From contig NZ_LBHJ01000002.1 of NCBI RefSeq assembly GCF_001006305.1, positions 186,001 to 250,000 of the forward strand: a stretch of 64,000 bases of DNA. The letters are read 5' to 3'. The stretch is from Silvibacterium bohemicum. GTDB lineage: Bacteria > Acidobacteriota > Terriglobia > Terriglobales > Acidobacteriaceae. A program made the position numbers and the translations under genes. Of this stretch, positions 18,791 to 45,148 are shown in pieces. The notes beneath the pieces were generated by a model. The model had not been told where the DNA came from and searched no databases. It saw only the letters and a list, made by a program, of their open reading frames with translations. Position 1 is the stretch's first letter. Each line of letters opens with the position of its first letter.

Positions 18791-18835
18791 CAGGGTGCCC
18801 CATCCTTCGCCGTCTTATGGCGAAAGGTGGGAGCC
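18791..18835. repeat. Divergent copy of the GTGCCCCA...TGGGG palindrome family
   Basis: The sequence begins GGGTGCCCCATC, like the copies at 37.2 and 45.1 kb, and forms an imperfect hairpin centred on GTCTTA (perfect core TTCGCC with GGCGAA). It lies 12 bp after the stop of the 897-aa gene and could act as its terminator. Confidence 0.55.
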
Positions 18836-18902
18836 CCCGCAACGCCGCACTGAAATAACTGTCTACTGAGGTGCCGATGGACGAAGAACCTCAACCGGCC
18901 GG

Positions 18903-18977
18903 TTTTCGCTAACCGGACTTCAGCTAACCGCTTCTCAGCTACCCGCCTCTAAGCGACCCGCCCTCAGCCGCACCTGT
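18903..18977. repeat. Five degenerate 15-bp tandem units upstream of eutB
   Basis: Units at 18903, 18918, 18933, 18948 and 18963 share a CTxAGCxAACCGC-like core (e.g. CTTCAGCTAACCGCT, TCTCAGCTACCCGCC). The array ends 26 bp before the eutB start, where promoter and operator elements would be expected. Confidence 0.7.
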
Positions 18978-19003
18978 GGTAGAAAGCTGGAAGACACCCA
19001 GCC

Positions 19004-20359
19004 ATGGCATACCGGCACACCATCCGCGGCGTCACCTACCTCTTCGATGACCTGCGCACGCTGCTGGCCAAGGCCACACCGCCGCGCAGCGGAGATGAAC
19101 TGGCCGGCATCGCCGCGTCGACCGCTTCCGAACGCGTCGCGGCGCAGATGGCTCTGGCCGATCTTCCGCTCTCCGCATTTCTGAACGAGGCGGTCATTCC
19201 CTACGAGAACGACGAGGTCACCCGCCTCATCCTCGACTCTCACAATGCTGCTGCCTTCGCGCCCATCGCGGCTTTCACCGTCGGCGAGCTGCGCGACTGG
19301 CTATTATCCGAGCAGGCGACCGGCGAGTTGCTCTCCTCTCTGGCATTCGCCTTTACGCCGGAGATGGCCGCCGCTGTTTCGAAGCTCATGCGCCTGCAGG
19401 ACCTGGTTCTGGTGGCGCGCAAGATCCGCGTGATCACGAAATTTCGCACTACCGTCGGCTTGCCCGGAACGCTTTGCTCGCGCTTGCAGCCAAATCATCC
19501 AACCGACGATCCCACAGGCATCGCCGCGTCGATGCTAGATGGCCTGTTGCTGGGCGCGGGCGATGCCGTGATCGGCATCAATCCCGTCTCTGACAGCGTG
19601 GCCAGCGTCACCACGCTGCTATCCATGATCGATCGCGTGCGCGAACGTTATCGGATACCGACGCAAAGCTGCGTGCTGGCCCACATCACCACGCAGCTGC
19701 GCGCGCTCGAGCGTGGAGCGCCGGTCGATCTCATCTTCCAATCGATCGCCGGAACCGAGCAGGCCAACACCTCGTTCGGAGTGAATCTCAAGCTGCTCGA
19801 TGAAGCCTATGCCGCAGGGCTCTCTCTCCGTCGCGGCGAGTCACAAGAGGGAAGTCCCAACATCATGTACTTCGAGACCGGTCAGGGAAGCGCACTCTCA
19901 GCGAATGCGCATCATGGAGTCGATCAGCAGACATGCGAGGCCCGTGCCTATGCCGTGGCCCGCAGATACAAGCCGATGCTGGTCAACACCGTCGTCGGCT
20001 TCATCGGGCCGGAGTATTTGTACGATGGCAAGCAGATTCTGCGCGCGGCGCTCGAAGATCACTTCTGCGGCAAGCTACTTGGCCTGCCCATGGGCTGCGA
20101 CGTCTGCTACACCACACACGCCGAAGCCAACGATGACGACACCGACGCCATCATGACCATGCTCGGCGTCGCAGGCGTGAACTACATCATGGGCGTGCCC
20201 GGCGCCGACGACGTGATGCTTAATTACCAGAGCACCTCGTTTCACGACATCGCCTATCTCCGCTCCGCGCTCAAGATGCGGCCCGCTCCGGAGTTCGAAG
20301 CATGGCTCGAACGCGGGTTACAAAACGAACTGTCGCTCGCCGGTCTGCTCAGCGCATGA
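19004..20359 (+). CDS. eutB: Ethanolamine ammonia-lyase large subunit
   Basis: A 451-residue protein, the normal size of EutB, which forms the TIM-barrel catalytic core of the adenosylcobalamin-dependent lyase that turns ethanolamine into acetaldehyde and ammonia. Family segments include FRTTVGLPGTLCSRLQPNHP, GLLLGAGDAVIGINPVSDS, FQSIAGTEQANTSFGVN, YFETGQGSALSANAHHGVDQ and LGLPMGCDVCYTTHAEAND, which contains the substrate- and cofactor-contacting residues. The stop overlaps eutC. No microcompartment shell genes, aldehyde dehydrogenase or reactivase are nearby, so acetaldehyde handling must be encoded elsewhere. Confidence 0.96.
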   Translation: MAYRHTIRGVTYLFDDLRTLLAKATPPRSGDELAGIAASTASERVAAQMALADLPLSAFLNEAVIPYENDEVTRLILDSHNAAAFAPIAAFTVGELRDWLLSEQATGELLSSLAFAFTPEMAAAVSKLMRLQDLVLVARKIRVITKFRTTVGLPGTLCSRLQPNHPTDDPTGIAASMLDGLLLGAGDAVIGINPVSDSVASVTTLLSMIDRVRERYRIPTQSCVLAHITTQLRALERGAPVDLIFQSIAGTEQANTSFGVNLKLLDEAYAAGLSLRRGESQEGSPNIMYFETGQGSALSANAHHGVDQQTCEARAYAVARRYKPMLVNTVVGFIGPEYLYDGKQILRAALEDHFCGKLLGLPMGCDVCYTTHAEANDDDTDAIMTMLGVAGVNYIMGVPGADDVMLNYQSTSFHDIAYLRSALKMRPAPEFEAWLERGLQNELSLAGLLSA

Positions 20360-21129
20360 AAGAGATTGGGAAACGCGATTCACCGCCTGTGCCCGACCGG
20401 AGCTCCTTGCGCGCACATACGCCCGCTCGTGTCGCACTGAGAACAGCCGGAAGCAGCCTGGCGACGGCTGAGATCCTCGACCTGAACCTCTGCCTTGCCG
20501 AAGCCCGCGACGCTGTCCACTCCACGCTGAGCACCGCGTCGCTAATGCCGCTACTCCGCGAGCGGGGATGGAGCCCGATCCTCCTGAAGAGCGCCGCACG
20601 AGATCGCCATGAGTACCTGCGCAGGCCGGATCTCGGCCGCAAATTGAGCGCGGAATCGCGGAGCCTTCTCGATCGAAATTCCAGCGCCGGAAGTGCAAAC
20701 GATCTGGTGATCGTCATCGCCGATGGCCTCTCCGCTATCGCCGTCGAACGCCATACGGTCCCATTGCTCGATGCGCTGACTCCGCTATGGCTGGGCGCAG
20801 CGCATGCGCCGGTCATCATCGCAGAGCAGGCGCGCGTTGCCATCGGAGACGAGATCGGAGAGCTGCTGCAGGCGCGCCTCACGCTGCTGCTTATCGGCGA
20901 ACGGCCCGGTCTCAGCTCGCCTGATTCGCTAGGCGCGTATATCACCTGGGCTCCGCGCATCGGCCGCACCGACGCCGAACGCAATTGCATCTCGAACATC
21001 CGGCCCGAAGGATTAAGTTACGCCGATGCCGCCGCCAGAATCGCGCATTACCTCAAGGCGGCCACGCAAAGGCAGCTCACCGGAGTCGCATTGAAGGACG
21101 ACAGCCTGTTCTTACCGGATGAGGCGTAG
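20356..21129 (+). CDS. eutC: Ethanolamine ammonia-lyase small subunit
   Basis: A 257-residue protein. Recognisable parts are RTAGSSLATAEILDLNLCLA, VIVIADGLSAIAVERH (shown as two hallmark stretches), LLLIGERPGLSSPDSLGAYI and RNCISNIRPEGLSY, the B12-side surface of EutC. ATG 20356 overlaps the eutB stop (ATGA), so the subunits are translationally coupled; starts further upstream lie inside eutB. The first 25 residues are longer and more basic than usual for the family. It binds adenosylcobalamin together with EutB. Confidence 0.95.
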   Translation: MKEIGKRDSPPVPDRSSLRAHTPARVALRTAGSSLATAEILDLNLCLAEARDAVHSTLSTASLMPLLRERGWSPILLKSAARDRHEYLRRPDLGRKLSAESRSLLDRNSSAGSANDLVIVIADGLSAIAVERHTVPLLDALTPLWLGAAHAPVIIAEQARVAIGDEIGELLQARLTLLLIGERPGLSSPDSLGAYITWAPRIGRTDAERNCISNIRPEGLSYADAAARIAHYLKAATQRQLTGVALKDDSLFLPDEA

Positions 21130-21212
21130 ATGGGATAGCCGGACGCGCGCCTGATCTGCGGATCGGCGTGAAGGCTTTCGGATCGTCCATCAGGCATACT
21201 GAGAAGAGACCT

Positions 21213-22007
21213 ATGCTTCCCGTTCTGTCTCCCGCTCAAGCGCTCGAATCGCGCCTTGCCCCGCTTCGCGACCGCCTCGCAAGACACCCGCTCTACGCCA
21301 GCATCCGCAGCATGGACCATCTCCGAATTTTTATGGAGTCGCATGTCTTCGCGGTGTGGGATTTCATGTCGCTGCTCAAGGCTCTGCAGAACGAGCTCAC
21401 CTGCGTCCGCGTGCCGTGGGTTCCGAATGAAAGCTCTGCAAGCCGTCGCTTCATCAATGCCATCGTTTTGGACGAAGAGAGCGACGAATACGAAGGCCGC
21501 ACGGTAAGCCACTTCGAGTTGTATATCGAAGCTATGCGCGAATGCGGCGCCGATACCGGCCCCGTCCTGCAGCTTCTAAACAAATTATCTGAAGGCAGCG
21601 AATTGAGCGACGCGCTCAACGGCGTTGAAGCTCCCGTAACCGCAAAAGACTTTGTAGCTTCCACCTTCGTCGTCATCGCGGAAGGCAGAGCCCACGCCAT
21701 TGCCGCGGCCTTTACCTTTGGCCGCGAAGATCTCATCCCGGAGATGTTCCGCGGCCTGGTTCGCGAGATGAACGGTCAGCTCTCCGGCCGCCTGCAAAAA
21801 TTTATCTGGTATCTGGAGCGCCACATCGAGCTCGATGGAGAGGATCACGGCCCGCTGGCTCTACGCATGATCGAAGACCTGTGCGGCGACGACGCCAAGC
21901 GTTGGTCCGAAGCGACAGAGGCGGCCGAAGCCGCCCTCGCCGCGCGTCTGAAGCTGTGGGATGGAATCCTTGCTGAAATCGCAGAGCGCGGAGTGAAGCC
22001 AGCTTAA
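21213..22007 (+). CDS. DUF3050 family protein (heme-oxygenase-like fold)
   Basis: A 264-residue, mostly helical protein that matches DUF3050 in length and motifs (MESHVFAVWDFMSLLKALQN, the VPNESSASRRFINAIVLDEE region, HFELYIEAM, FVVIAEGRAHAIAAAFTFG, LERHIELDGEDHGP). The spaced His and Glu residues suggest a metal or heme-oxygenase-like site. ATG 21213 has GAGAAGAGA upstream. It follows eutC by about 80 bp on the same strand and may be co-transcribed. A link to ethanolamine use is unproven. Confidence 0.82.
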   Translation: MLPVLSPAQALESRLAPLRDRLARHPLYASIRSMDHLRIFMESHVFAVWDFMSLLKALQNELTCVRVPWVPNESSASRRFINAIVLDEESDEYEGRTVSHFELYIEAMRECGADTGPVLQLLNKLSEGSELSDALNGVEAPVTAKDFVASTFVVIAEGRAHAIAAAFTFGREDLIPEMFRGLVREMNGQLSGRLQKFIWYLERHIELDGEDHGPLALRMIEDLCGDDAKRWSEATEAAEAALAARLKLWDGILAEIAERGVKPA

Positions 22008-22024
22008 GCTTATGCCGGCTTCAC
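21993..22024. terminator. Imperfect hairpin between convergent genes
   Basis: Arms 21993-22003 and 22014-22024 pair over 11 bp with one mismatch. The left arm overlaps the stop codon of the DUF3050 gene. No T tract follows on the plus strand. Confidence 0.4.
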
Positions 22025-22033
22025 CCGCAGCTT

Positions 22034-22654
22034 TTATTGAGTGGAAGTATCGTTCGCAGGCTGTACGCTTCCCACCTGCCAACCGTTGGTCGATTTCACC
22101 AGATTCGCAGTAGCGATCTGCTGTCCCGAGGTATCGGTCGCAACCTTCGGAAATGCAGTCTTCATCTCCGTGGAATTAGCCCAATCCGGCACGCCGGCCA
22201 CATCGTAGTGATAGGTCACGGAGTACTGCGTCGCGTCGGCGTTGTCGCTCGGCGTATAACTATCCACATTGGTCACTTCGCGGTGACCGAAGCAGAAATT
22301 GCCATAGCCCGGCTGCGTCTGGTCAGCGGTCCAAGTCGAACGGCCCTTGTCCGAGAGGTCATAATCGTTGACCTGCTTCGACCCGATCAGGAAGCGCTTC
22401 TTCTCCGCCGACTTCCTCACCAGTAGGCCAGCATCGGTCAGTGCGTCGAAGCCCTTGGTCTGTTCGTCGTTCGAGGTATCGGCCTGAACAGGAAACTTGA
22501 TCGGGCTCGACCACACGCATGCCTGTCGTGAGCTGTAGTAATCGTTGATCGCCGACTTGAATGCACCCTTGTCGACGGTGTTGGTCTTGCGGCACCCTGC
22601 TGCGAATACCATTGCACCGCATACTGCCAGGCCCAAAACATGTTTTGCTTGCAT
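22034..22654 (-). CDS. Lipoprotein of unknown function
   Basis: A 206-residue protein with a type II signal peptide (lipobox FAAGC, Cys near residue 21) and GAGGAG eight bases before ATG 22654. The mature part has small mixed alpha/beta segments (e.g. FDALTDAGLLVRK, a winged-helix-like stretch, and VTYHYDVAGVPDWA). The longer upstream frame is rejected because it would place the lipobox too far inside. It is probably anchored in a membrane facing the periplasm. It diverges from the BlaI-type repressor. No family is recognised. Confidence 0.7.
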   Translation of the reverse strand: MQAKHVLGLAVCGAMVFAAGCRKTNTVDKGAFKSAINDYYSSRQACVWSSPIKFPVQADTSNDEQTKGFDALTDAGLLVRKSAEKKRFLIGSKQVNDYDLSDKGRSTWTADQTQPGYGNFCFGHREVTNVDSYTPSDNADATQYSVTYHYDVAGVPDWANSTEMKTAFPKVATDTSGQQIATANLVKSTNGWQVGSVQPANDTSTQ

Positions 22655-22790
22655 CCAGAGAATCTCCTCGCAAGCTAAGATGCAAAAGTTCCCATCGGAC
22701 ACGCAGACATGGCCGCTTTATCTTCTCTTCGCCGAATTTAGCCCCAAAAAGAATTCTTTCGAAAAGGGCTTGCCAGTCCTCGGGACCCAT

Positions 22791-22827
22791 GTGTTACATT
22801 GGGTAACACTATGGCGAGTAACGTTAC
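22791..22827. promoter_or_regulatory. Double palindrome over the repressor start: likely BlaI-type operator
   Basis: Two inverted repeats share GTTAC/GTAAC half-sites: GTGTTAC-5 nt-GTAACAC (22791-22809) and the perfect 10-mer GTAACGTTAC (22818-22827). The repressor ATG (22811) lies between them. Centres are about 22 bp apart, two helical turns, suiting two dimers on one face. It resembles autoregulated BlaI/MecI operators in layout. Confidence 0.6.
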
Positions 22828-23224
22828 AGAAAGTCACGACAACAGCGCCCACGATCCGGCCGACCTGGGGGAGCTGGAACGCGAGATCATGCAGCTGGTC
22901 TGGCAGCACAGCACCATGACCGCGGAAGAAGTGCGCGAGCGGATGGAGCGTCCATTGAAGGATTCGACCATCCGCACCGTGCTGCGCCGCCTGGAAGAGA
23001 AAGGATATGTCACGCACACCGTCGACAATCGCACCTTCCACTACCAGCCGGCCGAGCCGCGGCAGGTGGTGGCGGGCAGGGCCGTGAAGCGGATCGTGGA
23101 CTGGTTCTGTGATGGGTCGGTTGAAGATTTGTTGGTGGGCATGGTGGATTCGAAGGTGCTGGACCGCAAGGAACTGCAGCGGCTGGCAGAACGTATTGCA
23201 GCAGCGAAGAAGGGAAAAAAGTGA
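22811..23224 (+). CDS. BlaI/MecI/CopY-family transcriptional repressor
   Basis: A 137-residue winged-helix repressor of normal BlaI length. LGELEREIMQLVWQHSTMTA leads into EEVRERM and STIRTVLRRLEEKGYV (recognition helix), then the wing HTVDNRTFHYQPA; the C-terminal third is the dimerisation and protease-cleavage region. ATG 22811 is preferred; a TTG at 22799 would extend it through the operator palindrome. No Shine-Dalgarno sequence is seen. Its stop overlaps the M56 gene, so the two form a repressor-sensor pair. Confidence 0.9.
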   Translation: MASNVTESHDNSAHDPADLGELEREIMQLVWQHSTMTAEEVRERMERPLKDSTIRTVLRRLEEKGYVTHTVDNRTFHYQPAEPRQVVAGRAVKRIVDWFCDGSVEDLLVGMVDSKVLDRKELQRLAERIAAAKKGKK

Positions 23225-25230
23225 TGACGACTCTCTTGGTGGAATCGGGACTTCGCTCCCTCATGATGGCAGTGATTGTTTGGGGTGGAATCAAGCTGCT
23301 CGGCGTGCGTCATGTGCTGGCGCAGAAGATCGCCTGGGGCCTTGTTCTGCTAACGGCCTTTGCCATGCCCTTGCTGATGCATTGGCAAGCCGCGCACCCC
23401 GGCGCCGCTCTGGTTGTGCCGGTGAAGCAGACTCCGGTCGTGACCGCGATTGAAAAGAGAGTCTCGTCGCTCAATATAACGCCAAGCCCGTCGCGATCTG
23501 GGATTGCATCAACGCCCACAGCATCGGTGCCCACCCCATTGACATCTACTTCGTTGACATCTATAGACGAGGCCATTCCAACCATCTCGCTGCAGCCCGC
23601 GACTCGCTCCTCAGCGACATGGCATGCGTCGGATCTCGTCCGCTACATCGTGCCGTCTTATCTTGCGGTCAGTGCCGTGCTGCTCATACGCCTGCTCTTC
23701 GGATTGGCTCTAGCCATGCGCATCTGGAACCGTGCCGAGCCGGCATCTCCCATTCTTGAGCCTCGCGCGACTGTTCGCATCAGCGATCGTATCCAAAGCC
23801 CTGTCACCATTGGCTCCGGCATCGTGTTGCCGGAAAATTACACGGAGTGGGATCGCTCGAAACTACGCTTTGTGCTCGCCCATGAGCGGTCGCATGTATG
23901 CCAGGGCGATTTCTATCTGCAGCTTCTGGCATCGCTCTATGCGGCGCTGGTGTGGATAAGTCCGCTGGGTTGGTATCTCAAGCACCGACTTGCGGAGTTG
24001 GGCGAGGCCATCAGCGATCATGCGGCACTACAAGAAGCCAATGACCATTCCTCCTATGCCGAAGTCCTGTTGGAATTCGCCGCCATGCCTCGTCATGGCT
24101 TCGCGGGAGTAACGGCAGGGGTGGGCATGGCGCGCTCCAGCAATATTCAGCGCCGCATCGAGCGCATCCTGAATGAGCGAATCTTCCGCAGCGCCTTTCT
24201 CAGCGGACGCCGCCACGCGGTGATCGCAGCACTGCTGGTGCCTTGCGGGCTGGTGCTGGCCACCTCTCTGCTGCATGTGCAGGCCGCGGAAGCAGTAAAG
24301 GCGAAGGCGGTCGCCGTGCTCACGACAGAGATCAAGGTGGGCGTCGGGATGGACAACGGGCAGGAGGCGAAGCCCTCAACGCTTCTTCCGCCGGCTGCCA
24401 TCGCGCCCCTGAACACGAAACCCGAACCCGCAGTGCTGGCCGCGATTGCCGAGAATTCCAACTCAGCGCACGTAGTGCTGGCTGAGGATGCGGAGCCCGC
24501 CGCGCCCGGTGCTAACGACGCGCCCGATGTTGAAGACGCCCAGAATCAATCCGCTCAGATTCAAGGGTGGAGCGATTCCGGCGACGATAACTCCTTCGCC
24601 GTTGTCGATGGAGACAAGAACTCGACAACTTCCGTTCATAGACACACCTACTTCATAGGCTCCTCCGATGACTACGGCGAGCTCGATCGGGTCCGCACGA
24701 AGGTTCACGGAAGCTTTCTGTGGTTCGAGCATGACGGCAAGTCGTATGTGGTAACCGATCCCGCGCTGGTGGCCAAGATCAAGGCTCTCTACGCGCCGCA
24801 GGAAGAGCTTGGACGGCGCCAGGCTGAGTTAGGAAAACAGCAGGGCGAGCTCGGCAGGCAACAGGGTTTGCTTGGGGCACAACAGGAGATGGTGAAGGTC
24901 CCGGTGCCGGATATCTCGAAGGAGATTGCGGAGCTGCAGCGGTCCATCCAGAGCATTTCCTCGCAGGCAACGCAGGAGAGCCTGAGCGAGCTGCAATCGA
25001 AACTCGGCGAAATGCAGAGCAAGCTGGGCGAGGCGCAGTCCCAGGCGGGCGCAAAGATGGGTGTCTTCGGCGAGCAACAAGGCGAGCTAGGCCGGAAACA
25101 GGGCGAGCTCGGCCGCCAGCAAGGGGAACTGGGCAGGGAGCAGGCGCGCATCGCGCGGGAGGCCAGCCGTCAGGCGCAATCAATCATTGACCAGGCGCTG
25201 CGCGACGGCAAGGCCAAGCCGGTCGAATAA
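23221..25230 (+). CDS. BlaR1/MecR1-type M56 membrane metalloprotease with heptad-repeat tail
   Basis: A 669-residue protein. The N-terminal 330 residues hold membrane helices and an M56 peptidase domain with the zinc motif HERSH (about residue 221) followed by GEAISDHAAL. No penicillin-binding sensor domain follows. Instead residues 380-669 form a periplasmic-looking region with a long coiled coil: seven-residue units of the ELGRQQG type in two blocks (about 528-550 and 620-645). It starts with GTG overlapping the repressor stop. It probably cleaves, directly or not, the adjacent repressor in response to an unknown envelope signal. Confidence 0.88.
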   Translation: MMTTLLVESGLRSLMMAVIVWGGIKLLGVRHVLAQKIAWGLVLLTAFAMPLLMHWQAAHPGAALVVPVKQTPVVTAIEKRVSSLNITPSPSRSGIASTPTASVPTPLTSTSLTSIDEAIPTISLQPATRSSATWHASDLVRYIVPSYLAVSAVLLIRLLFGLALAMRIWNRAEPASPILEPRATVRISDRIQSPVTIGSGIVLPENYTEWDRSKLRFVLAHERSHVCQGDFYLQLLASLYAALVWISPLGWYLKHRLAELGEAISDHAALQEANDHSSYAEVLLEFAAMPRHGFAGVTAGVGMARSSNIQRRIERILNERIFRSAFLSGRRHAVIAALLVPCGLVLATSLLHVQAAEAVKAKAVAVLTTEIKVGVGMDNGQEAKPSTLLPPAAIAPLNTKPEPAVLAAIAENSNSAHVVLAEDAEPAAPGANDAPDVEDAQNQSAQIQGWSDSGDDNSFAVVDGDKNSTTSVHRHTYFIGSSDDYGELDRVRTKVHGSFLWFEHDGKSYVVTDPALVAKIKALYAPQEELGRRQAELGKQQGELGRQQGLLGAQQEMVKVPVPDISKEIAELQRSIQSISSQATQESLSELQSKLGEMQSKLGEAQSQAGAKMGVFGEQQGELGRKQGELGRQQGELGREQARIAREASRQAQSIIDQALRDGKAKPVE

Positions 25231-25437
25231 TTTTTTCGGGAGAGCGTGAGCCGTTCTTGCTCCCGCGCGTCCATTGATTGCGGGTTCGGGTGGCGCTTCA
25301 AAATCGGCGCACTTTAAATCCGAGAACCGCAAAACCCGCGAACCGGGCCCCCCAAGATTGCGTAGATGTTATCTGCGTAGATTGCGTAGTTTCTCGCGCC
25401 GGCCAATTGCCGCTTCGGAATTGGTCTGCCAACATGC

Positions 25438-35505: not shown

Positions 35506-35533
35506 AGCTGTGTGAGCCCACGCCTTTTGTGAG

Positions 35534-35558
35534 CCCACGTCTCATGGCGAGACGTGGG
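35534..35558. repeat. Palindromic repeat family A, copy with CACGTCTC stem
   Basis: A perfect 10-bp stem (35534-35543 with 35549-35558) around a 5-nt loop, between the convergent CxxC-protein and frr genes. The stem differs from other family members by a paired change (CACGTCTC/GAGACGTG). A direct repeat TGTGAGCCCACG occurs at 35511 and 35528. Confidence 0.8.
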
Positions 35559-35582
35559 GCATCCGCAAGCCTCTGGCGCAGG

Positions 35583-36170: not shown

Positions 36171-36229
36171 GTGGTCTTCATCCTTCTGGTGCGGTGTTCA
36201 AAAGGAGATTGTAAACGCCTGCCCCATCG

Positions 36230-37156: not shown

Positions 37157-37212
37157 GAGCTTTTATTGTAAATGGCCGGGTGAAAGCCATGAAAACGCGA
37201 AACTCCGGGTGC

Positions 37213-37238
37213 CCCACATCTCGATGCTGAGATGTGGG
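37213..37238. repeat. Palindromic repeat family A, copy with CACATCTC stem (first)
   Basis: A perfect 10-bp stem (37213-37222 with 37229-37238) and 6-nt loop GATGCT, preceded by GGGTGC. It lies 57 bp from the lipA start. Confidence 0.85.
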
Positions 37239-37269
37239 ATTCCACAGGCGCCATCATAACAACGGATCA

Positions 37270-37305
37270 GGCGCCGAAGGCGCAATTGCCCGGACGGCCA
37301 GTCCT
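37270..37305 (+). repeat. Dispersed repeat family B (forward copy)
   Basis: GGCGCCGAAGGCGC, then a short variable stretch, then CGGACGGCCAGTCCT. It is nearly identical to 50092-50127 and sits between two family A palindromes. Confidence 0.8.
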
Positions 37306-37306
37306 G

Positions 37307-37332
37307 CCCACATCTCGTCTTTTAGATGTGGG
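37307..37332. repeat. Palindromic repeat family A, copy with CACATCT stem (second)
   Basis: A perfect 9-bp stem (37307-37315 with 37324-37332) around the 8-nt loop CGTCTTTT, directly abutting the family B repeat. Confidence 0.8.
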
Positions 37333-37350
37333 ACTGCTCGAGGATCAACG

Positions 37351-37968: not shown

Positions 37969-38123
37969 GGGGGTCACCGGGCGCGATTCTAGCATCGATT
38001 CATCCGGAGACTAAGCACATTCACTGGAGTGCACTGTAACTGGTGCGGCGAGTTATCGAACCAGCTGAGAACCGGGAAGCTCCGCAGCCTCACGACCGCT
38101 GTGAGGCTGCGTGAATGGCGGCT

Positions 38124-38528
38124 TCAGCCGCGGCCCGCAATAAATACGTCGATAGGCATCTTGAACCGCGCGCTTAACCTCCGCATCTGCTCGAGGGTAA
38201 GTTTCCGTTGCCTGGATAAGAACATCGACACGGCACTCTCCGATCCGAACTGTGGGATCAGATCGCGTTGTGTCAGGCTCTGCTTCTCGATAAGGAAACG
38301 CACGACGGAGACCGGATCGGCTGCGGGAATGGCGTAGTGTTCCTGTTCGTATCGTTCGATCAAGAGGGTGAGCAGCTCGACCGCCTCCCGCTCCGACAGC
38401 GACGGGTGCTCCAGGGCGGTGAGATCGAAGAGCGCAGCCGTGTAAGCTTCCAACTCCTCGTCGTTGTGAATGACGCGGGGAGCGCCTCGGGCAATCATCT
38501 TGGCCGGATTGGCGAGGAGTGTGCTCAT
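38124..38528 (-). CDS. higA: HigA-type antitoxin with helix-turn-helix
   Basis: A 134-residue protein. The N-terminal half (HNDEELEAYTAALFDLTALE) is the usual HigA neutralising segment; the C-terminal half is a Cro/C1-type helix-turn-helix (LTQRDLIPQFGSESAVSMFL, RRKLTLEQ-like region, LSARFKMPIDVFI). It follows the toxin gene with a four-base overlap, the toxin-first order of HigBA modules. It should bind the toxin and repress the operon, probably at the palindrome 38864-38886. Confidence 0.88.
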   Translation of the reverse strand: MSTLLANPAKMIARGAPRVIHNDEELEAYTAALFDLTALEHPSLSEREAVELLTLLIERYEQEHYAIPAADPVSVVRFLIEKQSLTQRDLIPQFGSESAVSMFLSRQRKLTLEQMRRLSARFKMPIDVFIAGRG

Positions 38529-38854
38529 TTTGTGGCGAATCTCTTATCCCAGTTGCGGGGGTTGTCGTACTGCTTGTGTGTTAAGAAGGATCGGATGTAA
38601 ACATGCCCCTGTGTCTGGCTTTCCTTCGTTGATTTCGCGTAGTGAATCACGGTGATGAGCCGATACCTGTTCTGCCGGATGTTGAAGACAACGTAGCCCT
38701 CAACGGAATCGGCGTCTGTGAACATCGCCCTGAGCTCGACAAAGTTATGCCATCGGACCGCCTCGACGATCGCCGCCCACGCGGCTATTTCGTCTGCTGC
38801 ATCCGGGTAGCAATCGATTGCCTCGCGCAGGTGCCTGCGCGTCACGATATGCAC
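38525..38854 (-). CDS. higB: HigB-family mRNA interferase toxin
   Basis: A 109-residue protein of the HigB_toxin (RelE-superfamily) group: REAIDCYPDAADEIAAWAAI, WHNFVELRAMF, VVFNIRQNRYRLITVIHY and FLTHKQYDNPRNW are all in order. Most relatives have YRYQRVFIRFVL-like sequence after the INY strand, whereas this one carries about nine extra residues (AKSTKESQTQG). It starts with GTG 38854; an ATG two bases upstream is out of frame. A 9-bp palindrome lies 10 bases upstream of the start. Confidence 0.9.
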   Translation of the reverse strand: MHIVTRRHLREAIDCYPDAADEIAAWAAIVEAVRWHNFVELRAMFTDADSVEGYVVFNIRQNRYRLITVIHYAKSTKESQTQGHVYIRSFLTHKQYDNPRNWDKRFATK

Positions 38855-38863
38855 ATGCCTATT

Positions 38864-38886
38864 CTACTTCACGTATTGTGAAGTAG
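38864..38886. promoter_or_regulatory. Palindromic operator of the higBA module
   Basis: CTACTTCAC and GTGAAGTAG (38864-38872 and 38878-38886) form a perfect 9-bp inverted repeat with a 5-nt spacer, 10 bases upstream of the higB start. Position and symmetry fit a binding site for the HigA dimer overlapping the promoter. Confidence 0.7.
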
Positions 38887-38906
38887 GGCTGTTTTCTTTT
38901 TCGGTA

Positions 38907-39305
38907 TCACTTCACCCGCTCCAGCACCTCAGGCCGGATCAGGTAGAGGAAGAAGATCAGGTTCACCACCACCATCACGATCATCGGACCCTGGTGCATG
39001 CGGATGAGCATCCAGGTTCCGTAGCAGAGAGAGAGAAAGGTGGCGGCGAGGGTGAGCGCCCATCCCCAGCGGCGCAGCTTGAGTAGGCCGTTGGCGGCGA
39101 TGGCCAGGATGACGCAGATGACCATCACGCCAGGAGGCAGGTGGTGCGTGATCACGCCGATAAGGCCAAGGCCGCAGAGGGCGAGCATCCAGAGACAGAT
39201 GACGGCCATGCCCGGGAGCAGGCCCGAGGCCGGTGCGGGCTTTGCGGGTTCGGCGCCGGCCGGTGTGTCGGGCTTCTCTGATCCGGACTTATCTGACTCA
39301 GTCAT
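38907..39305 (-). CDS. Four-helix membrane protein of unknown function
   Basis: A 132-residue protein. A Lys/Pro/Ala-rich cytosolic N-terminus (residues 1-28) is followed by about four membrane helices (30-52, 57-72, 79-97, 107-123). Its ATG overlaps the stop of the small cytochrome c gene by four bases, so the two are translationally coupled. A membrane anchor or partner for that cytochrome is plausible but not shown. No family recognised. Confidence 0.7.
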   Translation of the reverse strand: MTESDKSGSEKPDTPAGAEPAKPAPASGLLPGMAVICLWMLALCGLGLIGVITHHLPPGVMVICVILAIAANGLLKLRRWGWALTLAATFLSLCYGTWMLIRMHQGPMIVMVVVNLIFFLYLIRPEVLERVK

Positions 39306-39661
39306 AGGCTATGAAGATAGGCAAGCAGGTCGTCGAGCTGCTGGTCGTCAAGATTATTTCCGAAGGCTGGCATCATGTTGCGGCCCCGCAGGATCACTGC
39401 CGTCACGCGTTCGTCGTTCGCTGGAGCTCCGCTGGGGAGAAATTTCTTCTTGTAAAGCCCCTGCAAGCCCGGGCCGTGCAGGGAGTTTTCGTTATTGGCA
39501 TAATGGCAGCCGGCGCAGCGCGAGGCAAAGAGGTGGTATCCAGCGGTCTGCTGCGGGGTGAGTTCGCTGAGCGGCGTGGATGGTGGCAGCGACGGTCGGC
39601 ATCCGGTGGCCAAGGCGAGCAGAAGGGCTGAAGCAGGAATCAATTTGCGCGAGAGGCTCAA
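39302..39661 (-). CDS. Small cytochrome c lipoprotein
   Basis: A 119-residue protein with a type II signal peptide (lipobox LATGC, Cys21) and one class I cytochrome c domain: heme motif CAGCH (Cys49, Cys52, His53), a conserved GPGLQGLYKKKFLPSG stretch and axial Met in GRNMMPAFG. It would be anchored to the membrane as a one-electron carrier. It is translationally coupled to a four-helix membrane protein downstream. Confidence 0.9.
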   Translation of the reverse strand: MSLSRKLIPASALLLALATGCRPSLPPSTPLSELTPQQTAGYHLFASRCAGCHYANNENSLHGPGLQGLYKKKFLPSGAPANDERVTAVILRGRNMMPAFGNNLDDQQLDDLLAYLHSL

Positions 39662-39797
39662 CGGAATGTTCCTATCCTAAATCAGCGCGCATTCCGCTGC
39701 CGATCAGGCTTGAGGACCGGCCCCGCTGATCCCCGGCCCTCCGGCCGTTCCCATTGCCGGAATTGCCGAGAACCCCCACCGGTGTCATCCTTGGGGA

Positions 39798-40259
39798 ATG
39801 AAGCGAGAAACGTCATTCTGCATCGCGGCGGCCTTGTTGCTGGCCAGCTGGGTATCTCTCTCGGCACAGGAACTGGGATACTGGCGTCCGGCGAGCAAGA
39901 CAGCGCAGTCGATTACCGGCGAAATCGCCATATCGGACGCGAAGCTATCGATCAACTTCTACAATTTCAACATCGTTCGCGCCCGCGATCTCGAGCCCGC
40001 CGAGGTAAGCTCGGTTTTCGATACGGACAGCGCCGCGAGTCAAAAGGGCCACCTCTACGGACTGAGCATCCCTGCGACGAAGAAATTCCTGCACAAGACC
40101 ACTCTCTGTGGAACAGAAGATACGCGATGGATGGTGGCTTACTCCGACGGGAACTCCTTGCAGCTCGCCTTTTTCTCCGGTGCCAGAGCCCCTGTCTTCA
40201 CTGTGGACGCAATCCAGAACTCAACCAGCCTCTGCGGCACGTTTAACTACGTACGTTGA
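39798..40259 (+). CDS. Secreted protein of unknown function
   Basis: A 153-residue protein with a signal peptide (residues 1-23, cleaved after SLSA). The mature part is beta-rich and has two cysteines (KTTLCGTEDTRWMVAY and SLCGTFNYV) that could pair. The overall pattern is that of small one-domain secreted proteins seen often in Acidobacteria. It is convergent with dacB. No family recognised. Confidence 0.68.
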   Translation: MKRETSFCIAAALLLASWVSLSAQELGYWRPASKTAQSITGEIAISDAKLSINFYNFNIVRARDLEPAEVSSVFDTDSAASQKGHLYGLSIPATKKFLHKTTLCGTEDTRWMVAYSDGNSLQLAFFSGARAPVFTVDAIQNSTSLCGTFNYVR

Positions 40260-40308
40260 TCCGGCATCGCGACCGAAACGCCGTCTTATCGGGTGCGCCC
40301 GCAATGAA

Positions 40309-42018
40309 TCAATTTGCGGCGGCAATGGCGGCGACGATCTTATCCATGGCCACGCGAGCAGCCTCTCCGCCCGGAGCGCGGTCGTTGCACAGGATGGAAA
40401 ACGCGAAGGTCTTGCCGCTCGCAGCGGTCAGGTATCCGCTGAGACCGTGGACTTCAGCGAGTGTGCCGGTCTTGGCGAAGACTTTTCCTCTAAGCGCGGG
40501 ATCGGTGAAGCGCCCAGCCAGCGATCCATCCACGCCGCCCACGGGCAGGCTGGCGCGGTAGGTCGCACCCCAGGGCTGACGCGCAGCGAACGCCAGCAGG
40601 CGCGTGAACGCCCGCGGCGTGACGAGATCCTGCGGCGAGAGGCCCGATCCATCAAAGAAAATAAAGTCGCCCGGATCGACGGCCGGTCCCGCTGTGCCCG
40701 TAAGGAATTGCCTTACCACGCGCAAACCCTGCGCGGTCGATCCGTCGCCGCCTTCGAGCCGGCCCAGGATGTGCAGATAAAGCTCGGCATGCAGGTTCTG
40801 GCTGACTTTGTTGGTCACGACGACATCCTGCTCGAAGGGAATCGAGACATGCGAGGCAAGAACCCGCATGCCATTCGCCGGCGGCTGAATGGTAGCAAGC
40901 GTAAGAGGATGCAGCGCGACCGGCTGATTCACCTCGGCGCGGAAATCTTCCGTGTCGGTCGAGAGCCGATGCGCGGCGCGGGCGTTGCCCTTGATCTCGA
41001 TGCCATGGGCGAGCAGCATCTGGCGAAGCGCGATGGCTGCGTACTCGGCGGGATCTTCGATAGCCAGCGCGACGTGCAGCCCGTTTTGATTTGCGGCCCC
41101 CCCGTTTTGATTTACCGCTCCCCTGTTTTGATTTATTGCCCCAAAGAGGCGCACAACTTTGGAGCCCGCGGGACGGTCGATTCCAGCGCCTTCAGCCTGT
41201 GTTCCGGGCACAATCTGCAGCGAATTCTCCAGCGTGTAGTACGGAGTGTCGGGATTCCAAGCAGGCGGCTGTCCATTCCCCGACACGCTGAGATAAACGA
41301 CATTGTCGTTCACGGAGAGCGCGGAGACAGGCGCTCCGTAACTCCAGTCGAGATCGTCCCACGCCCAGCCTGAGCCGTAAGGCTGCCAGGGAAACCATGT
41401 ATCGTCGCCGATAATGTCACCGTCAATGCTACGAATTCCGCTGGCGGCAATCTGATCGGCAATCCCTTGCAGTGCCATCAGTGGAGGATTGGGCCGCTCC
41501 GTCTTCTCGGCGTAAGGATAGCTGCGCCCCGACAGGGTGGGATCTCCGGAACCAAGCAACACTACGTCGCCATGCAGATGACCGGCGCCATCCGTGCCTC
41601 CCGCGGTGACCGCAGACGTGGTGTAAGTCGCGTTGGGAGGCAGCAGAGCGAGCGCCGCAGCCGTCACCAGCAATTTCGCATTCGATGCTGGCGCAAAGAA
41701 CTGGCCGTCGTTCAGGCCGTAGACCGCCGCGCCATCCGCGCCAACGACCGAGATGCCCCAGTGCGCTCTAGCAACGGCTGGCTCGGAGACGATGGCGTCG
41801 ATCTGCGCGGCGAGAGCACCCGGCTTCATCTTCTGAACCGCAACCTTGGGATGACGCGTGGCCGCATTCAGTGCCGATGGGATGAGAAGGAAGCTTATCG
41901 TGACAGAGGCGGCGATAAGCATGACGCAGAAAGCTTTGCGGCCTCCCATCTTTGGTGAGACCGCGGCCCGAAGAGCGGAGCACTGGATTGGGAGGAGCAT
42001 GGGGGAGGAGGATTTCAT
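40309..42018 (-). CDS. dacB: D-alanyl-D-alanine carboxypeptidase/endopeptidase (PBP4 type)
   Basis: A 569-residue S13 peptidase. The three active-site motifs are present: SxxK as SNAK (Ser112, Lys115), SxN in LSVNDNVVYL and KTG in VFAKTGTLAEVHGLSG. A membrane-like signal segment lies at residues 28-50; the first 23 residues may be an over-long start, since Met24 or Met33 would give a cleaner signal peptide. A seven-residue Asn/Gln/Gly unit is repeated three times inside the family's inserted domain (41081-41143). It trims peptidoglycan in the periplasm. Confidence 0.94.
   Translation of the reverse strand: MKSSSPMLLPIQCSALRAAVSPKMGGRKAFCVMLIAASVTISFLLIPSALNAATRHPKVAVQKMKPGALAAQIDAIVSEPAVARAHWGISVVGADGAAVYGLNDGQFFAPASNAKLLVTAAALALLPPNATYTTSAVTAGGTDGAGHLHGDVVLLGSGDPTLSGRSYPYAEKTERPNPPLMALQGIADQIAASGIRSIDGDIIGDDTWFPWQPYGSGWAWDDLDWSYGAPVSALSVNDNVVYLSVSGNGQPPAWNPDTPYYTLENSLQIVPGTQAEGAGIDRPAGSKVVRLFGAINQNRGAVNQNGGAANQNGLHVALAIEDPAEYAAIALRQMLLAHGIEIKGNARAAHRLSTDTEDFRAEVNQPVALHPLTLATIQPPANGMRVLASHVSIPFEQDVVVTNKVSQNLHAELYLHILGRLEGGDGSTAQGLRVVRQFLTGTAGPAVDPGDFIFFDGSGLSPQDLVTPRAFTRLLAFAARQPWGATYRASLPVGGVDGSLAGRFTDPALRGKVFAKTGTLAEVHGLSGYLTAASGKTFAFSILCNDRAPGGEAARVAMDKIVAAIAAAN
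41081..41143 (-). repeat. Three-unit 21-bp tandem repeat inside dacB
   Basis: Units 41081-41101, 41102-41122 and 41123-41143 share CxGTTTTGATTT and code, on the minus strand, for three NQNxGAx heptapeptides in frame. Confidence 0.9.
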
Positions 42019-42046
42019 CTTTGCGCGGAGTGTAGCATGATGTTCG

Positions 42047-42940
42047 ATGGCCTTTGCATCTCGCGATCTGTATCAGTGGCAGTTGCGCACCCGCCGCCTT
42101 GAGCTCGGCAAGCGCACATTGATTATGGGCGTGCTCAATGTCACACCCGATTCGTTCTCCGACGGCAATCTTTTTCTTTCTCCTGAAGCGGCGACGGCCC
42201 AGGCCCTGGCCATGCTGAACGAGGGCGCGGACATCATCGACATCGGCGGTGAGTCGACGCGGCCAGGACAGTATGAGCAGGTGCCGGCTGAGGAAGAGCA
42301 GCAGCGCGTGCTTCCAGTGCTCGCGGCGATTTTGCAGGAGCGTCCCAGCGCCGTGATTTCCATCGATACCTACAAGGCTGCAACCGCGCGGCTGGCGGTG
42401 GAAGCCGGCGCCGAGATCGTCAACGACATCAGCGCCTTCGGATGGGATGAAGCAATGACGTCGACCTGTGTTGATCTGAAATGCGGCGTGGTGCTCATGC
42501 ACACCCGTGGACGTTCGGCGGAGTGGCGCTCGCTCCTCGGTCTCCACCATGACGAAGTGCTGCCGCTGGTAAAGCACGAGCTGGCCGCGAGTCTGAAAAT
42601 GGCGCTCGATTCAGGTGTCGAGCGCAGCCGCATCGCTCTCGATCCCGGCTATGGCTTCGGCAAATCCTTCGATGAGAACTATCCTCTGCTGGCGCGCCAG
42701 AACGAGCTCAGTTCGCTGGGCCAGCCGCTGCTGGCGGGGGTCTCGCGCAAATCGTTTCTGGGCCGCAAGCTCGCCGATCTGCACGGTGGTTCCGATGCCC
42801 CAATGGAGGCGCGCGCCAATGCCACCATCGCCGCATCGGTAGCCGCAATCCTGGCCGGTGCCCACATGATCCGCGTCCACGAGGTGGAGCCGGCAGTGGA
42901 GGCGGCGAGGATCGCAGACGCTGTTCTAGCCGCGGTCTGA
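42047..42940 (+). CDS. folP: Dihydropteroate synthase
   Basis: A 297-residue TIM barrel with both family signatures: MGVLNVTPDSFSDG and ADIIDIGGESTRPG, then SIDTYKAATARLAVEAGA, VNDISAFGWD and LDPGYGFGKSFDENY, ending with the RVHEVEP strand. It joins p-aminobenzoate to dihydropterin pyrophosphate in folate synthesis. It diverges from dacB with only 28 bp between start codons, so the two promoters must overlap the coding starts or each other. Confidence 0.96.
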   Translation: MAFASRDLYQWQLRTRRLELGKRTLIMGVLNVTPDSFSDGNLFLSPEAATAQALAMLNEGADIIDIGGESTRPGQYEQVPAEEEQQRVLPVLAAILQERPSAVISIDTYKAATARLAVEAGAEIVNDISAFGWDEAMTSTCVDLKCGVVLMHTRGRSAEWRSLLGLHHDEVLPLVKHELAASLKMALDSGVERSRIALDPGYGFGKSFDENYPLLARQNELSSLGQPLLAGVSRKSFLGRKLADLHGGSDAPMEARANATIAASVAAILAGAHMIRVHEVEPAVEAARIADAVLAAV

Positions 42941-43035
42941 TTCCCTCTCAAAATCCAAGTCCCAAAATCGGGACCTGGCGCACCCGCAATTCAGGATGTT
43001 GTGTGACGGCGATGGTGCCGTATCATTCTGGCACC

Positions 43036-44034
43036 ATGACAAATCGACTCCGCTTCGCCGTTGCGATTGCCGTCCTTCTTCTTGGGCCTTTTTCTCTCGC
43101 GCAAAAACATCGCGCTGTCTCGGCGAGCGCGGTCTATCCCATTGAAGAGGGCTACGTCGATGCGCATGGCGTGATGATCTACTACACCACCATCGGACGC
43201 GGCTCTCCGCTGATGATCGTCCATGGCGGTCCGGGAGCATCGCACGATTACTTCCTGCCTTACCTGCTGCCTCTTGCGCGGACCAACAAGCTGATCTTCA
43301 TCGATGAGCGTGGATCGGGGCGCTCTCAGAAGCTCGAAGACGTGAAGCAATACACGGTCGAGAACATGGCCGCCGATGTCGAAGCCGTCCGCGTGGAACT
43401 GGGTCTGAACAAAATCAGCCTGCTCGGTCACTCCTATGGCGGTGTGCTGGCGCAGGCGTATGCACTGAAGTATCCCGAGCATCTCTCTCATCTCGTCCTG
43501 GCCAGCACCTTTGCCAGCACCAAAGAGATGAATCAGGTATTGGCGAAGATCAAGAGCCAGATGCCGCCCGGAAAGCTGGCTTTGACCAACGCCATTGAGA
43601 AGGCTGGCCTCTTCGGCAAGGGCGCAGCGTGGGAACACGGCCGCTATCCCGACACCTACGCCACGCTGGCCTGGGGCGATGGATACTTCCCCAAGCTCTA
43701 CGGCGCGCGGCCCGATCCCAACTACGATCCTCAGGCCCAGAACACGACGACAGCATGGGATCTCTACCGCGAGATGTGGGGATCGCACGGTGAGTTCGTC
43801 ATCGACGGTAATTTGACCAGCGTCGAGTATCTCGACAAGCTGCCGGCGATCAAAGTGCCGACCCTGATCCTCGCCGGCGATCACGACGAGTGCGATCCCG
43901 CGATGTCGAAAGAGATGAACGCGAAGATCAAAGGATCGAAGCTGGTGATCCTGCCCAACAGCGGCCACATGGCCTTCGTCGACCAGCAGAATCTCTGGAA
44001 CAAGACGGTGGCGGAGTTCGTGAACGGCAAATAG
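43036..44034 (+). CDS. Exported alpha/beta hydrolase, proline-iminopeptidase-like
   Basis: A 332-residue protein with a signal peptide (residues 1-22, ending SLAQ), so it acts in the periplasm or outside. The fold is clear: oxyanion loop HGGPG (63-67), nucleophile elbow GHSYGG (Ser133), then the acid region TLILAGDHDECDP and C-terminal His in NSGHMAFVD. HGGPG and the DERGSGRS strand are typical of S33 prolyl iminopeptidases. ATG 43036 gives the cleanest signal peptide. The substrate is probably a small peptide, but related hydrolases vary. Confidence 0.85.
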   Translation: MTNRLRFAVAIAVLLLGPFSLAQKHRAVSASAVYPIEEGYVDAHGVMIYYTTIGRGSPLMIVHGGPGASHDYFLPYLLPLARTNKLIFIDERGSGRSQKLEDVKQYTVENMAADVEAVRVELGLNKISLLGHSYGGVLAQAYALKYPEHLSHLVLASTFASTKEMNQVLAKIKSQMPPGKLALTNAIEKAGLFGKGAAWEHGRYPDTYATLAWGDGYFPKLYGARPDPNYDPQAQNTTTAWDLYREMWGSHGEFVIDGNLTSVEYLDKLPAIKVPTLILAGDHDECDPAMSKEMNAKIKGSKLVILPNSGHMAFVDQQNLWNKTVAEFVNGK

Positions 44035-44156
44035 CCTTACTTCCTCACGCCGCAGGATGGGGAGTCTGGGCGACCCATTCTTTTCCATCGAGGCGGTTGG
44101 CGGCTCGACCGTAACGTCGAAGTCCTTCACCATCGCGTGGCAACAGCAAAAGGAAA

Positions 44157-44178
44157 AGGGCGCGATCGCTCGCGCCCT
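44157..44178. terminator. Terminator hairpin after rplT
   Basis: A perfect 9-bp stem (44157-44165 with 44170-44178), loop TCGC. Read from the minus strand it is followed by CCTTTTCCTTTTG, a good rho-independent end for the rplT transcript. It also lies downstream of the convergent hydrolase gene. Confidence 0.75.
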
Positions 44179-44200
44179 CTCTGTATTTCGTGTAACTGAA

Positions 44201-44572
44201 CTAAGCTGCGGCGGTGGTGTCCAGCACGGCCTTGGCCTGTCCCACCAGGGCGGTAAAGCCGGTTGGGTCGTTCACGGCGATGTCGGCGAGCATCTTGCGG
44301 TCTAACTCCACACCGGCCGCCTTCAATCCATGAATGAGCTGCGAGTAGCTGATGCCGTTGATCTTGGCTGCGGCGTTGATGCGCACAATCCAGAGCGAGC
44401 GATACTGGCGCTTCTTCTGTTTGCGGCCGCTGTAGGCGAACTTCAGTCCGCGCTCGACGGCTTCCTGCGCTGCCTGGTAGAGCTTGGATTTTGTAAGAAA
44501 GTAACCGCTGGCGCGCTTCAGGATCTTTTTGCGGCGGTCATTGCGTTTTGTTCCACGTTTTACGCGGGGCAT
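44201..44572 (-). CDS. rplT: Large ribosomal subunit protein bL20
   Basis: A 123-residue protein of normal L20 length. The basic N-terminal arm ([18 protein letters not shown]) and globular part with [38 protein letters not shown] and [14 protein letters not shown] are diagnostic. It assembles on 23S rRNA, and in many bacteria L20 represses its own operon through an mRNA structure. Here an unusually long 250-bp leader separates it from rpmI. Confidence 0.97.
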
Positions 44573-44822
44573 AGCTTATCTCTCCATTTTAGGTTCGCCG
44601 TCGTGGGAATTTAGGTCCCCAGCTACGTGAACGGGTTTAGCGGCTGGAGGCAGGAGCTTGCGCTGTCACCTCTTCACTCGCCTTCTTACTTCCTGATCGC
44701 TCGGGCTCTACTCCGCCGGATTTTCATCCGGTGAGCGTGAACCCGGGGGCCAATGCTGCCGGCCCTTGTTCCTTGATTCGCCGCGCTCCGTCAAGACTTC
44801 GCGCGGTGCGGCAAAGAACAGA
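44573..44822 (-). promoter_or_regulatory. 250-bp rpmI-rplT spacer, possible L20-responsive leader
   Basis: rpmI and rplT are usually separated by a few tens of bases. This spacer has no gene but contains G+C-rich stem candidates on the minus strand (e.g. CCGGATGAAAATCCGG and GGGCCGGCAGCATTGGCCCC). It could hold a separate promoter or an autoregulatory L20 site. No consensus was tested. Confidence 0.4.
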
Positions 44823-45020
44823 TCAAGCGTAGGGAATCATGCGCGCAACCTTCGCGTAGTCGGCGTCCGAAACCAGCGTGCTGTGAGCCAGCTTGCGCTT
44901 GGTCTTGGTTTCCTTCGACGTAAGGATATGGCGCATCTTGGACTGGCCGCGGACGATTTTGCCCGTGCCGGTCTTCTTGAAGCGCTTTGCGGCGCCCTTG
45001 TGGGTCTTTAATTTAGGCAT
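44823..45020 (-). CDS. rpmI: Large ribosomal subunit protein bL35
   Basis: A 65-residue basic protein with the L35 pattern: [20 protein letters not shown], then [20 protein letters not shown] and the short C-terminal helix. It lies upstream of rplT on the same strand. infC, normally the first gene of this operon, is not in the window; rpoD with its own terminator lies upstream instead. Confidence 0.96.
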
Positions 45021-45120
45021 GGTTATCCTGCTTGAAACATACGTACTTACAACATCAACCAGTATACGGGAACAGGTACGGATTGGCCAGTTCTATCCCG
45101 CATCGGTTTTCCGTCGGGTG

Positions 45121-45148
45121 CCCCATGTCTCGCTTTTGAGACATGGGG
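45121..45148. repeat. Palindromic repeat family A, copy with CATGTCTC stem
   Basis: A perfect 11-bp stem (45121-45131 with 45138-45148) with loop GCTTTT, preceded by GGGTG. The stem carries a compensated change (CATGTCTC/GAGACATG) relative to the 37.2-kb copy. It lies between the rpoD terminator and rpmI. Confidence 0.85.

Follow-up and report, generated by a model that had tools for sequence, protein, structure and literature searches.

In Pseudomonas, repetitive extragenic palindromes (REPs) and REPINs are short intergenic palindromes that flank the genes of REP-associated tyrosine transposases (RAYTs) and are RAYT-specific (PMC3116915; PMC3686654). REPs are argued to move as inverted doublets, with singlets called defunct remnants, and compensatory changes are described for the hairpin between the two REPs of a REPIN (PMC3116915); abundant REPs without a RAYT of their own "appeared quite often" in pseudomonads and stenotrophomonads (PMC3686654). 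In Acidobacteria a sharply defined group of RAYT-like genes is flanked by non-GTAG inverted repeats (Di Nocera et al. 2013, PMC3733652); these TIRtrons, with their TIRYT genes, are known from T. saanensis, K. versatilis, A. capsulatum, and G. mallensis, and the terminal inverted repeats (TIRs) of one K. versatilis gene belong to a repeated family (PMC3733652). TnpAREP subclasses combine a RAYT with HuH and Y motifs and REP-like flanks, some of them having a "double foot" or an atypical structure; the IS200/IS605 elements IS608 and ISDra2 use an HuH Y1 transposase, hairpin recognition, and insertion into the lagging-strand template (Quentin et al. 2018, PMC6006769). Here we describe two families of single hairpins, A and B, in a stretch of 64,000 nucleotides of Silvibacterium bohemicum (the window; contig NZ_LBHJ01000002.1, positions 186,001 to 250,000) and in the genome that carries it. 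Very probably they are REP/TIR-type non-autonomous elements of an acidobacterial RAYT (HuH Y1) system, because B flanks a RAYT gene, A stems belong mainly to one RAYT clade, and stems match between the paired hairpins within RAYT loci. Since non-GTAG-flanked RAYT-like genes of Acidobacteria have been published (PMC3733652), the finding is of a kind already known; the families look like RAYT-spread mobile DNA, an apparently new variant of a familiar type of bacterial repeat and not an RNA switch.

The genome comprises 6.46 Mb in 25 contigs (contigs, genomes, and loci are given below as C, G, and L numbers). The four window hairpins that a first-pass annotation had pointed out (Table 1) were found where it placed them, with perfect stems of 10, 10, 9, and 11 bp and in the three stem versions that it wrote. 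Three of them are copies of one element, family A, and the fourth, at 37307, is an A hairpin without its foot. The A strand in the window reads GGGTGCCCCA..., the copy at 35534 reads GGATGCCCCA..., and the family pattern is CCGGGTGCCCCACATCTCG[AC]TTYTGAGATGTGGGATTCCAC. Perfect-stem hairpins (at least 9 bp, loop 3-10) numbered 17 in the window as against 1-5 in ten first-order Markov sequences of equal length. A plain pattern of outer bases only, GTGCCCCAN{15,45}TGGG, had 107 genome matches, some of them not elements, as against 3 for the reversed control. With covariance models for A (from 17 copies) and B (from 13 copies), the whole genome gave at least 146 A matches at E<=1, at least 140 of them at E<=0.002, and at least 29 copies of the sister family B; copy counts in this genome and in the survey of relatives are lower bounds. 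The A set used below consists of 140 of the 146 matches, and the 29 B copies were picked from 66 B-model matches, the remainder being A elements, reverse B readings, and a few weak ones (C9:200918, C4:820463). The model search of 80 regions alone gave 225 R1 matches, reverse readings and B elements included. The annotation had named a restriction of the copies to these few as an outcome that would refute it; the model search of the genome, with at least 140 A copies, disposed of that outcome. Its "weaker fifth copy", at 18791-18835, turned out to be a good member of family B, with the same foot and another, longer stem (62.4 bits to a B model for which this copy was itself among the 13 source sequences).

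Around the aligned hairpins conservation drops fast to background: A spans CCGGGTGCCCC to GGGATTCCAC and B spans CCGGGTGCCCCATCC to GGGTGGGAGACCAC, with faint A-rich flanks only beyond these ends. This profile shows that the foot is common to A and B and that the stem is family-specific. The repeat is asymmetric, with a constant 5' foot, CGGGTG, and a weaker 3' tail that ends in CCAC in this genome and is far weaker in A than in B; on the opposite strand this genome's consensus has GTGG 3 nt from the stem, and the tail varies in other genera. The hairpin foot in both families, CGGGTG, thus differs as GGGTG from the GT[AG]G of Pseudomonas REPs (PMC3116915; PMC3686654), and the TIRtron motif GGGGWSAS (PMC3733652) differs from the GGGTGCCCC foot found here, the TIRs being compared by description rather than by sequence. 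Neither the GGGTGCCCC foot nor direct-only single hairpins are described in the portions seen of PMC3733652, PMC6006769, PMC3116915, PMC3686654, and related literature. Some A hairpins without the foot, such as that at 37307, stand directly behind a separate repeat, C (...GGACGGCCAGTCC-TG-CCCCAC...). Repeat C (GCGCCGAAGGCGCAATCGCCTGGACGGCCAGTCC) occurs in the window at 37270-37304 and 50110-50126, and A hairpins often lie directly behind it; its 17-base core has 53 exact genome matches, none reversed, and the window copy at 37270 is one base off. The spread of family A is very uneven, with 30 of the 140 copies in the first 260 kb of C4 (0-260 kb) and none of the 140 in the 800 kb of C12:94-897 kb.

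Two Y1 genes were found in the genome by PF01797 and a third by a RAYT query. The search for a RAYT/Y1 transposase that the annotation had proposed led to one intact RAYT, at C4:849146-849613, which scored 105.6 bits to NF047646 "REP-associated tyrosine transposase" (cut-off 80), matches E. coli TnpArep 4er8 (E 3e-6), carries the motifs HFH and YMHENP, and has a B element on each side, the two inverted. Three marks of a REPtron are present: a RAYT gene, inverted repeats (B) flanking it, and many dispersed intergenic copies. The arrangement resembles the TIRtrons in being a RAYT-like acidobacterial gene with inverted non-GTAG flanks (PMC3733652), the TnpAREP subclasses in its HuH and Y motifs and REP-like flanks (PMC6006769), and the Pseudomonas REPs in its short intergenic palindromes (PMC3116915; PMC3686654); the motif YMHRNP/YMHENP found here is not among the exact motifs in Table 1 of the TnpAREP paper (PMC6006769). 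In this genome A hairpins flank only an altered RAYT paralog, on one side; in other genera they stand on both sides of intact RAYTs (G119, G098, G072, G031, G079, G089). The annotation's reading of the palindromes as sites for a palindrome-binding or REP-transposase-like protein thus gained support from both families. The Y1_Tnp match at C12:134161 (L032) was rejected as the mobiliser, the one frame translated being broken by stops and no A or B hairpin having been found in its locus. The 30 best PF01797 loci of the bacterial family (L145-L174) were likewise set aside, being mostly other Y1 types; only L167 matched the two RAYT queries, and R1 or R2 matched (E<=0.1) only at L152, L156, L162, and L172.

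Relatives were surveyed in 120 genomes of the bacterial family, drawn evenly from more, among which the A model matched 89 (E<=1e-4), PF01797 106, and the C4 RAYT 97 (E<=1e-10); among named records two contained the strict A pattern, that of Bryocella elongata DSM 22489 and one from an Acidobacteria metagenome-assembled genome. A footed hairpin was present on at least one side in 28 of 29 best-hit RAYT loci (L176-L204), which had not been chosen by their hairpins. Over all 52 RAYT gene rows (51 loci) the figures were 43 on at least one side and 23 on both; unlike those for L176-L204, these lean towards hairpins because some loci were picked near A (of 20 extra stretches, L205-L209 were chosen for A/RAYT proximity and the rest from RAYT matches in genomes mostly rich in A). 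Within a RAYT locus the paired hairpins agree in stem, with a mean of 0.83 differences in up to 8 bases over 23 loci as against a mean of 4.09 and a minimum of 2.70 in shuffles; 10 pairs were identical, as against at most 5. For the 14 pairs from loci not chosen by hairpins the mean difference was 0.71, compared with 3.73 when shuffled (minimum 1.71). L205 was entered in the pair comparison as "none" despite having A hairpins. On the RAYT tree, where labels came from our own stem patterns and L188 and L205 were labelled by hand, A stems cluster: 3 changes were needed as against a shuffled mean of 11.1, and none of 500 shuffles was as low. Ten of the 12 A-labelled RAYTs fall in one group of 12 rows (90/92), nine of them in a starred group. 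A RAYT scoring at least 200 bits to the A-type L188 goes with at least 10 A matches in 12 of 16 genomes, as against 30 of the 104 others; the 200-bit line was chosen after viewing the list and takes in RAYTs with other stems (G062, G102, G023), and the A counts may include other stem types. No RAYT of the A clade was found in this genome (best 144 bits) or in G066 (no match at 1e-25), and A is abundant in both, so that family A looks orphaned here.

The annotation held that stem positions always change together with their partners, and it took compensatory change to mean selection on pairing. Within the window the first statement holds. Genome-wide we examined 57 fixed-length copies picked by their outer bases (plain-pattern matches of exactly 30 bases, two reverse readings of the same palindromes excluded), in which inner pairs were Watson-Crick in 332 of 342 cases, whereas partner shuffles gave a mean of 293 and a maximum of 305; with the 16 distinct stems each counted once, 86 of 96 pairs were Watson-Crick as against a shuffle maximum of 84. 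The loops of these 57 copies, supposed to differ freely, are dominated by GATTTT (15), GCTTCT (13), and GCTTTT (6), the other 23 copies having 12 variants. An ungapped 10+6+10 register (at least 7 pairs) fits 121 of the 140 A copies, with 52 distinct stems; here 68 cells had changed on both sides and were still paired, as against 71 that were not Watson-Crick, and 49 of the 121 copies had imperfect stems. Stem covariation is real but not absolute. Changes without compensation, which the annotation had named as the contrary outcome, do occur in part, and the step to selection on pairing, although pairs covary, needs care, as copied subfamilies transmit changes and copies decay. Fully paired stems make up 7 of the 13 recurring types but only 3 of the 39 single types (Fisher p 0.001), and of the types two changes away from the main stem the four compensated ones are all multi-copy, whereas the six broken ones are all single. 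From this we read that paired copies are copied onward more readily than broken ones. The identical neighbouring copies at C1:418333 and 418633 may reflect a local duplication.

The copies lie between genes in 132 of 140 cases for A and 28 of 29 for B (160 of 169 together), as compared with 19% of random sites in the same loci. Wherever A or B neighbours start less than 250 bp apart they are direct repeats (23 of 23 pairs), in contrast to the Pseudomonas unit, an inverted doublet in 93% of 430 doublets (PMC3116915; PMC3686654); the inverted doublet of a REPIN is therefore not the unit here. Element orientation follows base composition. Local GC skew, measured with the listed elements masked over at most 5 kb of each flank (in this genome mostly 1.4 kb), was negative on the element strand for 118 of 140 A copies (57 of 70 loci, p 1e-7), and B elements lay on the locally C-rich strand in 27 of 29 cases (19 of 21 loci). 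In single-contig genomes of two other genera the element was on the C-rich strand in 54 of 56 cases (G047; 31 of 32 regions) and in 28 of 30 (G119; 20 of 20 regions), the G119 set being 30 of 33 matches after exclusion of the RAYT-flanking pair and one 94-base match; the 24 matches of G117 stand outside the skew sample. Random 45-mers with 1-2 more C than G were on the C-rich strand in 56% (n=547), and the words GGTGCCC (54%, n=37) and GAGATGT (42%, n=64) had no C-rich lean. Gene direction was considered as the cause of the bias and found no support: codon-position-3 skew on the element strand was negative beside co-oriented genes (mean -0.231, 106 of 113 negative) and, more weakly, beside anti-oriented ones (mean -0.045, 83 of 127). 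The bias fits insertion into the single-stranded DNA of one replication strand, since single-strand insertion at forks would predict it, and it is what the mechanism of IS608 and ISDra2 predicts (PMC6006769); unlike IS200/IS605 elements, A and B carry no gene, and no target-site or excision product was seen. On the single-contig chromosome of G047 (L304-L355) GC skew flips sign repeatedly, with values to about 0.2, unlike two plain replichores.

Each A or B element is a single hairpin whose foot, GGGTG(CCCC), is constant and whose stem is specific to the family. We propose that a RAYT would bind it as single-stranded DNA, the stem providing specificity and the foot serving as guide. The RAYT would copy the hairpin into DNA exposed as a single strand in one orientation, with replication forks as the simplest setting. 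If well-paired copies are the preferred templates, two-sided stem changes would found new subfamilies, and most broken copies would stay single and decay. Family A in this genome is probably an orphan set that has lost its own RAYT, or else relies in trans on the B-type RAYT of C4. The proposal that A and B are RAYT elements draws its support from copy number, sharp ends, intergenic position, inverted flanking of RAYT genes by hairpins of like stem, the concentration of A stems on chiefly one RAYT clade, and strand bias. Several observations weigh against it. The genome is near-complete and yielded no A-type RAYT, and A is abundant in genomes without a PF01797 match (G034, G035), so that A is at present only putatively mobile. 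Among 18 broken stem types with one change, five occur more than once, in 2-3 copies each. Some control words lay on the C-rich strand in 73% of cases (GTGCCCC, n=15; CCCCGTG, n=22; GATTCCAC/TTCCACA, n=63). The C-rich strand is usually the lagging strand; GC skew is only a proxy, so that calling the element strand "lagging" is an inference, and skew was set aside as a proven leading/lagging label, gene direction not following it (rho -0.03). The strand as written lacks the GT[AG]G tag that marks classical REPs, neither an excision junction nor a target-site junction came to light, and the division into genic and intergenic sites came from a simple codon-usage gene caller.

Some properties of the copies would also suit a role at the RNA level, in which neighbouring genes retain the hairpins to stabilise 3' ends, terminate transcription, or bind proteins on the mRNA, functions of a kind that has been hypothesized for REPs (PMC3733652). 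The copies lie nearer to gene 3' ends (median 66.5 nt) than to 5' ends (161.5 nt), and convergent spacers hold 40 copies where spacer lengths in the same loci predict 22.7. Between tandem genes, however, the copies face both ways, 50 against the direction of the genes and 29 with it (p 0.024), and orientation tracks DNA skew beside genes of either direction. Of 121 copies, only 5 have TTTT within 9 nt after the hairpin and none has AAAA before it, no Rfam family exceeded its gathering score in the window, and the imperfect stems are many. Mismatches of the G.T type, which a one-strand RNA would favour, are about as frequent as A.C mismatches in the 121 copies (25 and 21). The equality lends no support to a one-strand RNA structure, and we consider an RNA-level role improbable; the RNA hairpin offered by the first-pass annotation gained nothing from these tests. 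The same equality leaves room for template switching, in which one arm of a quasi-palindrome is copied onto the other without selection on pairing and RAYT amplification then multiplies the product. In its favour, transversions (CG to GC at pair 5, seven copies) are among the two-sided changes, and their intermediates are few. We nevertheless judge it unlikely, though less so than the RNA role, given the one-sided mismatches that stay uncorrected, the excess of fully paired stems among recurring types, and the agreement of RAYT-flanking stems across the gene, not just within one hairpin.

A host protein that binds the palindromes, as a chromosome organiser or regulator, with RAYTs only their historical source, would be a further explanation, and a possible binder is the altered paralog at C9:333267-333770 (L225), which retains neither the tyrosine nor the first HuH histidine; an A hairpin stands just upstream of it. 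It belongs to a clade (support 100/100) of eight proteins from eight genomes in five genera; the relatives (L226-L232) are 48-66% identical to this genome's copy, and the next match has E 1e-31. In the alignment the tyrosine is absent from all eight, and every one of them lacks one or more of the HuH histidines (SNFH, TGFH, SVFH, DHFR, DHFR, DNFS, DRFH, and DRFH, the last two proteins ending early, at 130 residues); the four that were scanned scored 61-77 bits to NF047646, below the cut-off of 80. Pairwise ratios of nonsynonymous to synonymous substitution rates (dN/dS) were 0.12-0.43 where computable; dS exceeded 0.5 throughout and often approached saturation. From these sequence features the clade is a candidate domesticated transposase; in the literature seen on RAYT domestication with loss of catalysis we found no paper on such a clade. 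As an account of the repeats themselves, however, the host protein seems to us improbable. The A model found no match upstream of the seven other paralogs (the G033 gene has one about 1.2 kb away, and by eye a degenerate inverted A-like hairpin stands upstream of L231), A is abundant in genomes where the paralog clade was not found (G047, G119), and the copies avoid divergent promoter spacers (9 as against 26.6 expected).

Spread by RAYTs is the reading we keep. A farther-reaching proposal, which we advance tentatively and hold to be doubtful, combines single-hairpin, strand-locked REP copying at the fork, which would record local fork direction across genera, with a non-catalytic RAYT domesticated as a binder of hairpin DNA. 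The text seen of PMC3733652 contains no stem covariation, stems by RAYT clade, strand bias, or catalytically altered clade, and acidobacterial stems by RAYT clade, a strand rule, and a paralog clade are not described in the portions seen of that paper, PMC6006769, PMC3116915, and PMC3686654. Through their direct-only close neighbours, their foot other than GT[AG]G, the strong strand rule seen in three genera, and stem types that follow RAYT clades, A and B would open two questions to testing: can single hairpins be mobilised, and does this take place at forks, on single-stranded DNA? For the specificity of RAYTs, the stems form a natural test series.

Table 1. Elements of families A and B and repeat C in the window, with model scores and contig positions.
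Feature	Window position	Strand	Score	Contig position	Context
Family A element, stem CACGTCTC/GAGACGTG, hairpin 35534-35558	35524..35572	-	46.7 bits	C9:221524-221572	3' side of frr
Family A element, stem CACATCTC/GAGATGTG, hairpin 37213-37238	37199..37248	+	60.7 bits	C9:223199-223248	5' of lipA
Separate repeat C (GGCGCCGAAGGCGCAATTGCCCGGACGGCCAGTCC)	37270..37304	+			joined directly to next A hairpin
Family A hairpin without GGGTG foot, hairpin 37307-37332	37293..37342	+	40.1 bits		directly behind repeat C
Degenerate family A copy	42945..42993	-	34.6 bits	C9:228945-228993	between folP (dihydropteroate synthase) and next gene
Family A element, stem CATGTCTC/GAGACATG, hairpin 45121-45148	45108..45157	+	57.2 bits	C9:231108-231157	between rpoD and rpmI
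Family B element, stem CCCCATCCTTCGCC.../...GGCGAAAGGTGGG, the former "weaker fifth copy"	18785..18841	+	62.4 bits	C9:204785-204841	

The genes around the window copies are frr, lipA, rpmI, rplT, rpoD, and folP; the neighbours frr, lipA, and rpmI named by the annotation were borne out by NCBIfam matches over cut-off. Eight same-genus genomes yielded five full lipA loci, one fragment, and two without a lipA match, and in the five full loci (L256-L260) a pattern search found no A or B element within about 1.5 kb; we count these loci as a possible sign of element gain or loss, on a comparison of loci rather than of gene order. A 13-bp hairpin at window positions 14915-14949 has a B-like stem (CATCCTTCAC...GTGAAGGATG) with another foot and is a weak partial match to the B model. 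Three further long perfect hairpins (14-16 bp), at 53842-53875, 59098-59130, and 63274-63310, lie outside families A and B.

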